Assembly: GCF_900155735.1 (NCBI RefSeq) | Contig: NZ_LT707049.1 | Span: 46,408-88,240 of the forward strand | Direction: 5' to 3' | DNA length: 41,833 nt | Origin: Intestinibacillus massiliensis | Lineage (GTDB): Bacteria > Bacillota > Clostridia > Oscillospirales > Butyricicoccaceae | Shown here: in pieces, positions 34,560 to 41,833 of the stretch | Position numbering within the stretch: the first letter of the stretch is position 1 | Layout of the letters: each line of letters starts with the position of its first letter | Position numbers and translations under genes: made by a program | The notes under the pieces: generated by a model | Databases searched by the model: none | Told to the model about the DNA's origin: nothing | The model's input: only the letters and a program-made list of their open reading frames with translations

Positions 34560-35867
34560 TTATTGCAGCGGGACGGTCACGCCGTCCAAATTGATGGATA
34601 CCAGATCCGCCGGATCAATCGGCTCGTCAAACACCCACTGGTCGTACGAGTGCCCGACCGTGTCGCCGTTGAGCTCGCCCGAGGAATAGGAAGCGTTCAC
34701 GACGTTTTTCGTCAGGATGAGCTTTGTCCCGTCGCGCAGCATTGCGTAAGCCGGGCGGTTGCCGAACAGGATCGACGCGTCGTTGTCCGACATCACAAAC
34801 ACCGATATCGGCGACACCCGGACTTGCGACACGACCGCGCCGCCGACCTGCGTATGGGTGGCATAGGTGATCTGTTCCGGAATCTGGATGGTCACATCGA
34901 GATCCCATTCCCCCTTGACCTCCGGCTTTGTAAAGAGCGTGCCGTACAGCGGGTCGAGCACAAGGTCGCCTACATCCTGCACCCCGGCGCTAAAGGCGAT
35001 GTCATAGTAGTGCGTCCCATCCTGCACAAAGGACGCGTCCGTCAAATCCTGATTGTACGTTTCAAAATCCTTTCCCGAACGGCTGCGCACGGTGGTGATC
35101 ATGTAGCTCTGGTCATTGCCCGCGCTGCCTGCGAAGGCGACCTGCACGTGCAGCCTGCCGTCCTCGGCAAACCCGATGGAGGACAGCCGCACGAGGCCGG
35201 TGCCTACAAACGCATGCGGCGTCTGCTCCGGGGCGAGCACTTTGCCGCCGTCCGCCAGGGTGATGGTCTTGCGCGTTTCCGCCGTCAGCACGCCGTCCGG
35301 CAGCGGCAAGCCGTCGATATCCTGTATGGCCTGGAAGCTGGAAAAGCTGACCGTCGCCGGGGTGTCGCCCGTCAAATGGTTGCCGTCGGCGGTTAACTCC
35401 ACCAGCGCGGTGCGCGTGTCGCCGTCGTAACTGATGACCTTCGCCCCTCCGCTACTGATGCCGCTGTCATTCGGCAGGCCTTCAACCCAGCCCCATATCC
35501 GCATCTCGCCGCCCAGGCGGTCGCCCGCCTTGTCCTGCACCTCACAGTAGACCCGGGTTAGGCTGCTATCCGCCAGCGCGGAAACCACGCGGACCTCGAT
35601 CCCTTCCGCCTGTGTGGAAACGCCGCTGATCGCCTGGCTTTGCGGCGCAAGCCCGCCGAGCGCCTGCATCAGCGCCGCGCGCAGGCCCGTGCTCGCCATG
35701 ACGAGCATCGACGCTGTGAGCATTACGCACACCGCAGCCGCGGCAATGCGGGCGCCCCGTGTAAATCGCGGCCGCTTTTTAGCCGCCCCATGCAGGATTG
35801 CCTGCCGGCGCGCCTCCGTCAGTACAATATCTTGCATCGCCCGATCCAGTTCACTCCTCATCTTCAT
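34560..35867 (-). CDS. Membrane anti-sigma factor, DUF4179-like
   Basis: A 435-residue protein: a cytoplasmic N-terminus of ~36 residues with basic clusters (TEARRQAILHGAAKKRPRF), one membrane segment (IAAAAVCVMLTASMLVMAS, about 40-60), and a large external domain of about 370 residues with beta-rich repeats. This matches DUF4179-type anti-sigma partners of Clostridial ECF factors. The start ATG at 35867 lies inside the sigma gene (17-base overlap), so the two are co-translated. It likely binds the sigma factor and releases it on an envelope signal. The target signal is unknown. Confidence 0.82.
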   Translation of the reverse strand: MKMRSELDRAMQDIVLTEARRQAILHGAAKKRPRFTRGARIAAAAVCVMLTASMLVMASTGLRAALMQALGGLAPQSQAISGVSTQAEGIEVRVVSALADSSLTRVYCEVQDKAGDRLGGEMRIWGWVEGLPNDSGISSGGAKVISYDGDTRTALVELTADGNHLTGDTPATVSFSSFQAIQDIDGLPLPDGVLTAETRKTITLADGGKVLAPEQTPHAFVGTGLVRLSSIGFAEDGRLHVQVAFAGSAGNDQSYMITTVRSRSGKDFETYNQDLTDASFVQDGTHYYDIAFSAGVQDVGDLVLDPLYGTLFTKPEVKGEWDLDVTIQIPEQITYATHTQVGGAVVSQVRVSPISVFVMSDNDASILFGNRPAYAMLRDGTKLILTKNVVNASYSSGELNGDTVGHSYDQWVFDEPIDPADLVSINLDGVTVPLQ

Positions 35868-36381
35868 CGTAATACCATCCTTTCAGCGCATCCTTGAGCT
35901 GCGCCCGCGCGCGTGCCAGGCGCACCGTCACCCCCGAGACCGACAGCCCGAGCAGCGCCGCGATTTCGCGCGCCTTTAACTCCTGGTAATAGTGCAGGAG
36001 GACGACCTCCCGGTACTTGCGCGGCAACGCCATGATCGCACGCGGCAGGGTATCGTCCGGAAGGCGCAGTTCGCCGCCAGCAGGCAACCCGTCCATCGCC
36101 TCCGCGGCCACGCGGCGGCGCTTCCACGGGCTGCGCAGGTAACTCCTGCATACGTTGATGGCGATACCGGTCAGCCAGGTCAGTTCGGTGCTGTCCCCTC
36201 GGAAGGACGGCCATGCACGGTACGCGCGCAGCAGCGCGTCCTGTACCGCGTCTTCCGCCAGATAGGGATCCTTCAAATATAACGTGCACATGCGCAGGAG
36301 CCGGTCGCCATATTGCTCCAGCCAGGACGCCAGGTCCGCTTCCGTCCTGCCCTCTTCCCATGCCGCCGTTTGACCGCTCAT
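35851..36381 (-). CDS. ECF-type RNA polymerase sigma factor
   Basis: A 176-residue sigma-70 family factor. Region 2 (LLRMCTLYLKDPYLAEDAVQDALLRAYRAWPSFRG) spans about 28-63 and region 4 (LPRKYREVVLLHYYQELKAREIAALLGLSVSGVTVRLARARAQLKDAL) about 118-166. No region 1 or 3. Start at ATG 36381, 9 bases after GGGGAG; an upstream ATG at 36408 would add nine residues. It overlaps the anti-sigma gene and is probably autoregulated, since an ECF-like promoter (TGTAGC-N17-CGTC) lies upstream. Confidence 0.93.
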   Translation of the reverse strand: MSGQTAAWEEGRTEADLASWLEQYGDRLLRMCTLYLKDPYLAEDAVQDALLRAYRAWPSFRGDSTELTWLTGIAINVCRSYLRSPWKRRRVAAEAMDGLPAGGELRLPDDTLPRAIMALPRKYREVVLLHYYQELKAREIAALLGLSVSGVTVRLARARAQLKDALKGWYYDEDEE

Positions 36382-36414
36382 AATAAACCACTCCCCTTTC
36401 GCCGTCATCCCTTT

Positions 36415-36441
36415 GACGCGCGGCTGTGCAAAATTGCTACA
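36415..36441 (-). promoter_or_regulatory. Candidate ECF (autoregulated) promoter
   Basis: TGTAGC (36436-36441), then 17 bases, then CGTC (36415-36418), resembling the TGNAAC...CGTC pattern of many Bacillota ECF promoters, 35 bases upstream of the start codon. Confidence 0.4.
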
Positions 36442-36558
36442 ACTGCTGCATCCCTTTTCCATCCTGTCATATCTTTTAAATCGCACGTGGTTTTTTGTTA
36501 ATCCCTCACAATTACACCAGCAGCAGAAACACCCCAATTGTTAATTTTTTTAATTCCC

Positions 36559-39973: not shown

Positions 39974-40124
39974 TCTTTTTACCCCCCAAATAACTTAATG
40001 CTCCTAGTATAACACAATGCATGCCCCATTTCCACCGCTTACGCGCATTTCCGCGCAAAAAAGAACAGCCGCACCCATCACGGCGCGGCGGCATAGCATG
40101 TTGCAGAGGGGAGGAGTTTTGTCT

Positions 40125-40529
40125 ATGAAAAAAGCGGCAGCCCTCGCAGTCGTCGGCGGCGACCTGCGGCAGGCTTACCTGGCGCGCCTCCTGCGCGCCG
40201 ACGGGCACGAAGTCTCGGTCTATGCGCTGGAACGGCAGGCGATGGATCCGAAAATCCATGTCATCCACGATCCCAAAACGGATTTTGCAGAGGCCGAGGC
40301 AGTCATCCTGCCGATGCCGGTGCTGCAGGATGAAAAGCACCTGAACGCGCCGTTATCCAACGCGCCGCACCGGATCGAAACCATTTTCGACTGCATCCCA
40401 TCCGGCAAACTGGCGCTTGGCGGTTCCGTACAGCCGTCCGTCCGCGAACGCGCGGCAGTCTGCCATGTGGAGCTTCGGGATTACTTAACGCGTGAGGAAC
40501 TCGCGATCAAAAATGCCGTCCCTGCGGCA
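40125..40529 (+). pseudogene. dpaA: Truncated dipicolinate synthase subunit A, N-terminal domain only
   Basis: The first ~135 codons read as the N-terminal domain of SpoVFA/DpaA: LAVVGGDLRQAYLARLL at the start, ILPMPVLQDE and the end DYLTREELAIKNAVPA. In intact proteins TAEG and then a Rossmann-fold NAD(P)H domain should follow (total about 280-300 residues). Here the frame instead enters ALAKIPRYG and continues antisense to a convergent kinase gene as far as 41099, without domain sense. A good ribosome site (GGAGG) precedes the ATG. No dpaB follows. Most likely a decayed or recombined sporulation gene; a short functional domain cannot be fully excluded. Confidence 0.7.
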
Positions 40530-41075
40530 TTAGCGAAAATACCACGTTACGGTATCGTCCGCAAACTCCCGGTCGAGCACCACCTCAAAAAACGCGTGCA
40601 CGTTTTCCGCAAGCTGTTCCAGCGGCCCGTCGTTGTCAAAATAGTAATCGTAGCGGTAGTCGAGGACGGAATCGTCCGACCGGTTGCCGAGCGCGCCCTC
40701 GGCTTCGACGATGCGGCGGCGCACCAACAGCGTGTGGCAGCACCCGCCCACCGCCTTGCGGAAGCGCTCGATTTCCTCGGGCTCGCGGATGTGCACGAAC
40801 AGCACCTGCTCGTCCCCTTCGAGGAACTCGATATACTGCCGCATGCAGTAGGAAAAAGACAGGTCGTTATATTCGGTAAATACCTCTTTCAGGCGGGAAA
40901 GCAGGCGGCGCGCCGCCGGGGTCTTTTCCCCGTCCCAGCCCGCGAACCGGGCGATCTCCACGATCGGCGTAATGGAAGAGATATTCCGCACCTTATAAAA
41001 TTGCCCCGCCAGCGCGCACACGGTGTCCTTCCCGACCCCGCCGCGCCCATTGACGACGATCACTCGCTTGTCCAC
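40530..41075 (-). CDS. P-loop nucleoside/nucleotide kinase-like protein
   Basis: A 181-residue P-loop NTPase. Walker A is NGRGGVGKDT (residues 9-18), a layout like deoxynucleotide or adenylylsulfate kinases. FVHIREPEEIERFRK resembles the LID/Arg region of phosphotransferases, and LLVRRRIVEAEGALGNRSDD a later one. I cannot name the substrate. The start is a GTG at 41075, after GGGGGACGTGGGAA. It is convergent with the dpaA fragment: the kinase stop codon lies exactly where dpaA homology ends. Promoter TGTGGTATAAT at 41109-41118 region. I see no partner gene in its operon. Confidence 0.75.
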   Translation of the reverse strand: MDKRVIVVNGRGGVGKDTVCALAGQFYKVRNISSITPIVEIARFAGWDGEKTPAARRLLSRLKEVFTEYNDLSFSYCMRQYIEFLEGDEQVLFVHIREPEEIERFRKAVGGCCHTLLVRRRIVEAEGALGNRSDDSVLDYRYDYYFDNDGPLEQLAENVHAFFEVVLDREFADDTVTWYFR

Positions 41076-41108
41076 TTCCCACGTCCCCCTATTTGCTGAT
41101 ACTGTTTT

Positions 41109-41114
41109 ATTATA
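41109..41114 (-). promoter_or_regulatory. Extended -10 of the P-loop kinase gene
   Basis: TATAAT on the minus strand with TGTGG upstream; no convincing -35. Confidence 0.5.
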
Positions 41115-41198
41115 CCACACAGGCCCGGAGAAGGCTATGTCATTTTTACGTTGTGCCCCGCGCGTGCAAATGGTATCCTGAAAAAAGATCAAGCCGCA

Positions 41199-41227
41199 TG
41201 AAAAATTCCGGCCATCTGGTTTGTATA
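41199..41227 (+). promoter_or_regulatory. Candidate promoter of the second ECF sigma gene
   Basis: TGAAAA (41199-41204), 16 bases, then TTGTATA (41221-41227). It could be an autoregulated ECF promoter. TATTTT and TATAAG nearby give sigma-A alternatives. Confidence 0.35.
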
Positions 41228-41252
41228 TTTTATAAGAGAGGGGGTGTGTGCC

Positions 41253-41711
41253 TTGGATACGGCGCAAATGGAGATGGCCGTCGCCCGTTACGGCGAAAAC
41301 CTGCTGCGGCTGGCCTTTACCTATACCCGCAATATGGCGGACGCGCAGGACGCCGTGCAGGATGTTTTTGTCAGCCTGCTGACGCGCGCCCCCGCCTTTG
41401 CAGACGAGGGGCACCGCCGCGCCTGGCTCATCCGCGCGACCATCAACCGCTGCAAAAACCTGCTGCGGTCGGCCTGGTTCCGCAAGACGGTACCGCTCCC
41501 GGACGACCTTGGGTATCTGCCCCCGGAACAGGACGCCGTACTGTCCGCCGTGCTCGCCCTGCCCGAAAAATACCGTGCGGCCATCCACCTGTATTATTAC
41601 GAAGATTGCTCCATCCGGGAAATCGCCGCGCTGCTGGGCAAAAAACCGGCCACCGTTGGCACGCTGCTCGCGCGCGGGCGGACGCTTTTAAAGGGGGTGC
41701 TGTCCGAATGA
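41253..41711 (+). CDS. ECF-type RNA polymerase sigma factor (second copy)
   Basis: A 152-residue sigma-70 family factor with region 2 (LLRLAFTYTRNMADAQDAVQDVFVSLLTRAPAFADEG, about 17-55) and region 4 (LPEKYRAAIHLYYYEDCSIREIAALLGKKPATVGTLLARGRTLLKG, about 105-150). I prefer the TTG at 41253, 8 bases after GAGAGGGGG, over the GTG at 41244 that overlaps the site. Its stop overlaps the next start (ATGA). Only about 4.9 kb separates it from the other ECF module. Confidence 0.92.
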   Translation: MDTAQMEMAVARYGENLLRLAFTYTRNMADAQDAVQDVFVSLLTRAPAFADEGHRRAWLIRATINRCKNLLRSAWFRKTVPLPDDLGYLPPEQDAVLSAVLALPEKYRAAIHLYYYEDCSIREIAALLGKKPATVGTLLARGRTLLKGVLSE

Positions 41712-41833
41712 AAGGGAACTATAAAGCCGCCATGGACAGCCTGCATATCCCCGCGGATTTTCAGGCAAGCACGGTGCGCGCGATGCAAAACGCCAGGCCG
41801 CGCCGCCGGCGGCGCGCGGTGCGCCTCGCCCCC
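41708..41833 (+). CDS. Putative anti-sigma factor (partial, C-terminus outside window)
   Basis: Forty-two codons are present. The start is MKGNYKAAMDSLHIPADF, a helical N-terminus followed by a very basic RPRRRRRAVR stretch that would precede a membrane segment. The ATGA overlap with the sigma stop and this pattern are typical of ECF anti-sigma genes. The rest is outside the window, so the family is not certain. Confidence 0.6.
   Translation, partial: MKGNYKAAMDSLHIPADFQASTVRAMQNARPRRRRRAVRLAP

Follow-up and report, generated by a model that had tools for sequence, protein, structure and literature searches.

At the right end of the window, the whole stretch of 41,833 nucleotides from Intestinibacillus massiliensis analysed here, a short open reading frame with homology to dpaA is very probably the 5' half of a functional dpaA gene into which a skin-like gene-intervening element has been inserted, the junction between gene and element being the attL site of the latter. 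This reading draws on static genomes, many of them MAGs, and its basis is the presence of both halves of the gene, the exact codon at which they part, their rejoining in frame, a recombinase gene, the recurrence of the break at one codon and the selection seen in relatives. In the mechanism we propose, attL and attR would be joined across the CC of the NAVP proline codon by a large serine recombinase whose gene sits next to attR, at the element's right end; the interval would be released as a circle, and an uninterrupted dpaA followed by dpaB would be restored. A protein of ~45 aa encoded upstream of the recombinase may act as the directionality factor. Excision would presumably be confined to the terminal mother cell, the spore keeping the interrupted gene, and dipicolinate synthesis would start only after the cut. 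The proposed mechanism is strongly indicated by the anatomy of the locus.

Both halves of dpaA and the junction between gene and element

The 5' half of dpaA (spoVFA) occupies 40125-40523 on the plus strand, with 133 codons of which the last encodes proline (CCT), and was assigned with PF16924 and NF006162. Domain searches found a complete DpaA_N domain in the ORF starting at 40125 (PF16924, residues 7-121, E 9.5e-27), the single match to this domain in the whole genome at E 0.001. As the earlier note had claimed, dpaA homology stops at the KNAVPA motif, the last common codon being the CCT at 40521-40523 (the proline of KNAVP), and the sequence from 40530 onward is antisense to a kinase-like gene. 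The accompanying statement that the protein is reduced to its N-terminal domain held only in part: homology does end there, but the reading frame from 40125 runs on, open until 41099 (324 codons), so that dpaA, if left unexcised, would encode a chimeric protein. We also considered a stand-alone short DpaA conserved in relatives, a case the same note had raised, and rejected it: at 14 split loci only a few codons after NAVP are alike, beyond which the sequences diverge and the frames stop 5 to 386 codons on. Nor is the ORF a duplicate fragment of an intact gene located elsewhere, since the genome search returned no second intact dpaA.

The catalytic Rossmann domain, initially taken to be lost, was found beyond the right edge of the window at C23:96253-96729, downstream of the 5' half and on the same scaffold and strand. 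The gene next to this C-terminal half is dpaB, also presumed lost but present and intact (TIGR02852, 235 bits, cut-off 229). The halves are separated by 9322 bp, a scaffold-based distance because two joins of a single N lie between them, one at L056 2342, immediately after the window's final base, and one at L056 3514. The second of these joins is flanked by a duplicated stretch, which suggests that it was made over a repeat.

The two halves cover adjoining parts of the NF006162 (DpsA) model, positions 3-135 and 136-291, and when rejoined at the proline codon they give a DpaA of 292 aa that scores 282.8 bits and passes the cut-off of 261; the N- and C-terminal halves taken separately score 75.5 and 189.5 bits, and the uninterrupted dpaA of the sister genome (G001, a MAG of I. 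massiliensis) scores 284.0 bits. The equivalog cut-off of TIGR02853 (319.65) was reached neither by the joined protein (216.0) nor by the uninterrupted sister gene (233.6), and since this intact gene fails too, TIGR02853 does not separate split from intact dpaA here. Removing the interval restored the frame exactly in all eight complete elements, and rejoining was in frame in all 21 pairs read from the 22 split genomes described below (G237 was left out of this reading, which also covered the att sites, and the 5' half of G012 is cut by a contig end).

The same 21 pairs were used to define the attachment sites. The CC of the proline codon stands at both ends in 21 of 21 pairs, mostly as CCT, and the attP reconstructed from them is an imperfect dyad whose left arm has the consensus CGC-x-AACG and whose right arm has TT-x-GCGA; centred on this CC the dyad reached 59% complementarity, and no other centre tried exceeded 42%. 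From this comparison and the dyad we place attL, the junction of dpaA and element, at 40500-40547, with CC at 40521-40522 as the probable central dinucleotide. Directional joining by large serine recombinases needs a non-palindromic central dinucleotide. The element's left end is at 40524, and the element fills the rest of the window (40524-41833) and runs past it to attR at about C23:96252 (L056 about 10353), as placed from the position of the C-terminal half. A recombination junction, one of two explanations offered in the earlier note, is the right reading of the locus, whose anatomy is that of a serine-recombinase attL.

Could the step from 40523 to 40524 instead be an assembly chimera, joining two unrelated contigs? 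The two single-N joins further right and a gene order around the dpaA halves that differs from that of the sister genome would fit such an error. However, there is no N at the junction itself, nor in the stretch that holds the recombinase, the C-terminal half and dpaB, and similar junctions, in which NAVP runs into a short series of like codons from the end of the element, are present in assemblies made independently, for instance in a 3.2-Mb contig of the isolate Agathobaculum massiliense Marseille-P4005 (G002) and in A. butyriciproducens DSM 100391 (G003), which makes a chimera extremely improbable.

The other explanation offered initially was erosion of spore maturation genes, by which the C-terminal domain and dpaB would have been deleted and the N-terminal domain left as a remnant. 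Within the window the N-terminal domain alone is indeed visible, but the other half of dpaA and an intact dpaB were found, purifying selection acts on both halves in the split genomes compared (see below), and both Spo0A and a sigK-like gene are present, so that erosion is refuted and keeps practically no probability. Specifically, this genome has one Spo0A match (C28) and, with the sigma-K model TIGR02846, one full-length match at C34:449455, taken as sigE, and one partial match on C33 (205 bits). No match in six genomes, nor in the B. subtilis control, reached the cut-off of this model (298.65), and therefore the name sigK rests on a sequence pattern. This sigK-like gene is split too, with its 5' half at C33:103521-103724 and its 3' half at C33:91111-91608, ~11.9 kb apart, and a serine recombinase adjoins the 3' half (G000:C33:91111-103724; L236:1112-13725). 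At least two spore genes of this genome thus seem, from their arrangement, to depend on DNA rejoining. In the sister genome dpaA is uninterrupted, yet the sigK-like gene is again in two pieces, which lie about 78 kb apart and are divided at another codon (C1:194044-272815; L242, L243).

Recurrence at one codon and selection on the halves

The break in dpaA is not peculiar to this genome. At least 22 of the sampled genomes, spread over four families and including Agathobaculum isolates, have dpaA cut at codon 134, and the same break at the same codon in 22 genomes argues for more than chance; the count is a lower bound because the order and class surveys were samples and the order counts rest on the matches listed. 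Among 87 genomes of the family, which we took to be Butyricicoccaceae, dpaA is uninterrupted in 33 and split at codon 134 in 15; three more (G052, G053 and G082) have the split at a second site, near residue 247. In G081 the 5' half lies near a contig end, G068 also meets a contig end and was left unclassified, and in the rest of the 87 the DpaA match is divergent, partial or absent, 13 genomes having no match to the DpaA alignment. Outside the family, the matches listed include first-site splits in G138, G247 and G237 (f13) and in G244 (f2), as well as one genome, G216 (f13), split at the second site, and a sample of 196 genomes of the class added first-site splits in G401, G456 and G543 (f36).

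Some further genomes showed related arrangements. In G431, from the same class sample, the two parts of dpaA are on separate contigs (L259, L260) and adjoin near residue 190, a possible third site, G429 is a possible second-site case in which no 3' half was seen, and partial DpaA matches occur in G198, G185 and G129 (family f2). The second site near residue 247 follows the motif DLASKPGG (loci L185, L186, L188 and L184), and its recombinases belong to another clade.

The halves lie on one contig in 16 of the 22 first-site genomes and on two contigs in the other six, and all 16 same-contig pairs are in direct order. Interval length ranges from 2487 bp (G013) to about 45 kb in Butyricicoccus faecihominis DFI.6.109 (G005). 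When the C-terminal half of the DpaA of the sister species was used as query, this half was present in 17 of 17 genomes (14 split genomes and three intact controls).

Both dpaA halves are open and stop-free in the 14 split genomes compared, and in the five split pairs reported dN/dS is below 1 for the N-terminal as well as the C-terminal half, a comparison in which dS comes near saturation in some pairs. As examples, the pair G009/G026 gave dN/dS values of 0.075/0.684 for the N-terminal and 0.079/1.185 for the C-terminal half, and the highest ratio among split pairs was that of the C-terminal half of G013/G014 (0.179/0.551); three intact pairs gave values similar to or lower than those of the split pairs. 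For this genome the only pair available was that with its intact sister (N-terminal half 0.357/1.597, C-terminal half 0.196/0.953). Judged by these substitution patterns, selection on the two halves is purifying in the split genomes compared. We also asked about quicker decay of split dpaA by dividing the changes at codon positions 1+2 by those at position 3. For the N- and C-terminal halves respectively, this ratio was 0.368 and 0.380 in 91 split-split pairs, 0.357/0.346 (102 pairs) and 0.445/0.427 (24 pairs) in split-intact comparisons, and 0.341/0.343 in 36 intact-intact pairs; it is slightly higher in split pairs, with no sign of decay, and the idea was dropped.

Recombinase, promoter boxes and cargo of the interval

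A large serine recombinase gene was found in the fetched flanks of 21 of the 22 split genomes; none was seen in the flanks of G401, which were fetched in part only. In this genome the gene (L056:8603-10141) is antisense to dpaA, abuts the C-terminal half and lies about 200 bp from attR, and its product carries Resolvase (PF00239), Recombinase (PF07508) and zinc ribbon (PF13408) domains, all above cut-off. The zinc ribbon falls below cut-off in the recombinase of G013, and in G032, G244 and G247 the gene stands at the attL side instead. The nearest solved structure is a recombinase domain from a conjugative transposon (3g13, E 7.1e-43); the match to SPbeta YokA is much weaker (9.9e-12).

Searching a set of 22 genomes with this recombinase, we found that the ten best foreign matches all lie at dpaA, with 51-62% identity, and that they represent all ten other first-site genomes in that set; relatives away from dpaA begin at 57% identity and go downwards, over shorter stretches. 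A tree placed 19 of 20 first-site recombinase rows (from 19 genomes, G237 contributing two) in one clade with support of 100/98, with G244 outside it and the three second-site recombinases in a clade far from it. A tree that included the f36 rows but lacked the sigK recombinase of G001, the partial row of G026 and G039 grouped 20 of 21 dpaA rows together with support of 94/95; the dpaA group was not resolved in a tree that contained the long-branched G001 sigK recombinase and from which the second-site rows and two long rows had been removed. Overall, the phylogeny points to an old recombinase lineage faithful to one target. The element of G237 holds two related recombinases (L179:3807-5405 and L179:7733-9361), each with its own small upstream ORF.

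Directly upstream of the recombinase, a script identified an ORF of 37 to 54 codons (~45 aa) with a common pattern at 17 of 20 loci; the one in G138 was identified by eye in addition, and at the G247 and G244 loci the script found none. Family searches gave no confident match for this small ORF, and a SHOCT domain suspected by eye was rejected (PF09851, 14.5 bits versus a cut-off of 27). By analogy with CD1234 and GirX, small factors discussed below, its product is a candidate directionality factor.

The timing of excision was approached through promoter boxes. A candidate sigma-K-like promoter of dpaA lies at 40073-40100 on the plus strand, with AC at 40073-40074, a 17-bp spacer and CATAgcATG, the box GCATAGCATG being at 40091-40100; the dpaA box was read against the sigma-K promoter consensus. 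The pattern GCATAnnnT[AG], whose background in the window is 0.143 per kb per strand, occurs within 48 nt before dpaA in 26 of the 29 genes read (of 30 loci), and AC-N16/17-CATA stands upstream of dpaA in 21 of these 29. The same GCATAnnnT[AG] pattern was found within 45 nt before the small ORF in 15 of 19 recombinase operons (two of the four without it, those of G138 and G247, are mis-picked ORFs), and AC at sigma-K spacing precedes the operon in three of the 19 only. The rows are related, and these counts are therefore not independent. Since most recombinase operons, like dpaA, are preceded by a CATA-type box, a mother-cell timing of excision is supported at the level of promoter motifs. In C. 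difficile, dpaAB is described as a sigma-K-dependent mother-cell operon in the text available from PMC3789822. The 5' half of the split sigK-like gene has the same GCATAGGATG box upstream.

These results bear on a further alternative, that of a dead or selfish insertion: dpaA would be permanently broken, the host would either not sporulate or form spores poor in DPA, and the halves would still be there because the insertion is recent. Excision is deduced here from static genomes, and since 13 of the 87 family genomes have no DpaA match and others only a divergent short one, dpaA can evidently be lost or replaced. Such a view is at odds, however, with halves that are open throughout the split genomes compared and evolve at dN/dS below 1, with a mother-cell-type box kept before dpaA and most recombinase operons, and with dpaA recombinases that have diverged from each other, which argues that their association with dpaA is not recent. 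We consider a dead insertion improbable, and return to the excisable element as the preferred reading.

Its cargo begins with a P-loop kinase-like gene (40530-41078, minus strand), identified from its sequence, which is interval cargo here and an ordinary chromosomal gene elsewhere. Its product matches a deoxynucleoside monophosphate kinase PHROG (E 1.4e-11) and had no Pfam or NCBIfam match in domain searches, and relatives are present in 35 of the 87 family genomes. In the sister genome the kinase gene adjoins a uracil permease gene, and here the 5' half of dpaA separates the two; likewise, the MMPL-p689 pair is within the interval here and just upstream of dpaA in G025. Because the kinase and MMPL-p689 have these other chromosomal settings in G001 and G025, the interval seems to have taken up host genes by rearrangement, with the reservation of the scaffold joins noted above. 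The interval also carries an ECF sigma factor gene (41256-41711, plus strand; TIGR02937, 71.4 bits, cut-off 42.9; Sigma70_r2 and Sigma70_r4_2 above cut-off). The ORF list of the window contains a second ECF-type sigma factor gene at 35851-36537.

In seven genomes of genus g2, which is Agathobaculum by its named members (G002, G003, G009, G013, G014, G015 and G026), a second, divergent Spo0A-like protein is encoded inside the dpaA element; the elements of G009 and G026 are divided between contigs, and for these two 'inside' refers to gene order on the contig. These proteins score 67.6-84.9 bits with Spo0A_C, each genome having its best Spo0A match elsewhere, and the three that were scanned reached 93.0-112.5 bits with TIGR02875, under the cut-off of 200. 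Loci of this regulator include L057:2429-3187, L059:1366-2115 and L069:2353-3096, and where it shares a contig with the recombinase it lies downstream on the same strand. The second-site elements of G052 and G053 appear, from their translations, to hold purine-biosynthesis genes. Phage content, scanned in ten proteins of four elements with the larger elements left aside, was limited to the recombinase (phage integrase PHROG) and a coiled-coil protein with a tail tape measure match (E 1.5e-7). Prophage-like content is common in sporulation gene-intervening elements but no requirement, since gin (below) does without it.

This cargo is also relevant to a reversible switching in growing cells, by active lysogeny or phase variation, which would leave only part of the population making DPA. 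Uninterrupted dpaA in 33 of the 53 dpaA-type family genomes would agree with it, and the C. botulinum yin element was excised at all time points according to the text seen of PMC10747680. Intervals holding chromosomal genes (the kinase here and, apparently, purine biosynthesis in the two second-site elements) would nevertheless be costly to lose for a growing cell, and the promoter boxes are of the mother-cell type, so that we regard switching as unlikely.

Known intervening elements and the meaning of the dpaA split

Intervened spore genes on record comprise sigK, spsM, spoVFB, spoVR, gerE and yabG, as listed in the portions available of PMC10747680, PMC5595907, PMC5025042, PMC4191935 and PMC3789822. 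An interrupted dpaA (spoVFA) had no mention among the matches listed in the open-licence literature, of which partial text was available, and a report may exist elsewhere. The closest parallel is vfbin in spoVFB (dpaB) of Bacillus weihenstephanensis, which, like the element described here, sits within the dipicolinate synthase operon; it is excised during sporulation, as we propose for dpaA (excerpts of PMC10747680, PMC4191935 and PMC5595907). In those excerpts, however, vfbin targets dpaB and has phage-related genes, whereas here the target is codon 134 of dpaA, intervals go down to 2.5 kb and the hosts are Clostridia.

The skin elements in sigK of Bacillus subtilis and Clostridioides difficile have a recombinase of the element rejoin a mother-cell gene, as we propose for dpaA, and differ in their target; excision of the C. 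difficile element needs the small directionality factor CD1234 (both from the text available of PMC5025042 and PMC3789822). The gin element in gerE of Bacillus cereus is likewise gene-intervening, lacks phage genes, has a short common core and needs the small GirX, but at 28.6 kb it carries three serine recombinases where the dpaA elements usually have one and can be as short as 2.5 kb (PMC5595907, in part). In Clostridium botulinum, yin in yabG is likewise a clostridial gene-intervening element, with a SpoIVCA-related recombinase and a putative small directionality factor; it is prophage-like and known from one strain in the sections seen of PMC10747680, whereas the dpaA site is used in many species. 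The sigK skin element has been termed an exception in clostridia (PMC5025042, partial text). Set beside these systems, dpaA is a new target, and its element a compact and recurrent variant of the gene-intervening system.

A broader reading is conceivable, and we put it forward tentatively. The element may be an excision switch dedicated to dpaA, in which an old recombinase lineage has stayed at one codon across several Clostridia families and now serves as a regular checkpoint in the maturation of the spore; in places the switch would have shrunk to a 2.5-kb module made up of the recombinase, its ~45-aa partner and a Spo0A-like regulator. As the interval takes up chromosomal genes, the mother cell would then discard working genes when it commits to dipicolinate filling.

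The dpaA recombinases come with natural attL/attR pairs, and the named cultured strains A. butyriciproducens DSM 100391 and A. massiliense Marseille-P4005 make the timing and directionality of excision and the role of the Spo0A-like regulator testable. In the genomes sampled, 22 from four families have dpaA interrupted at one codon, several gut bacteria being among them, and the gene has a second site as well. Where annotation or sporulation surveys score dpaA or sigK as broken in genomes of this kind, they may wrongly class the organisms as non-sporulating.
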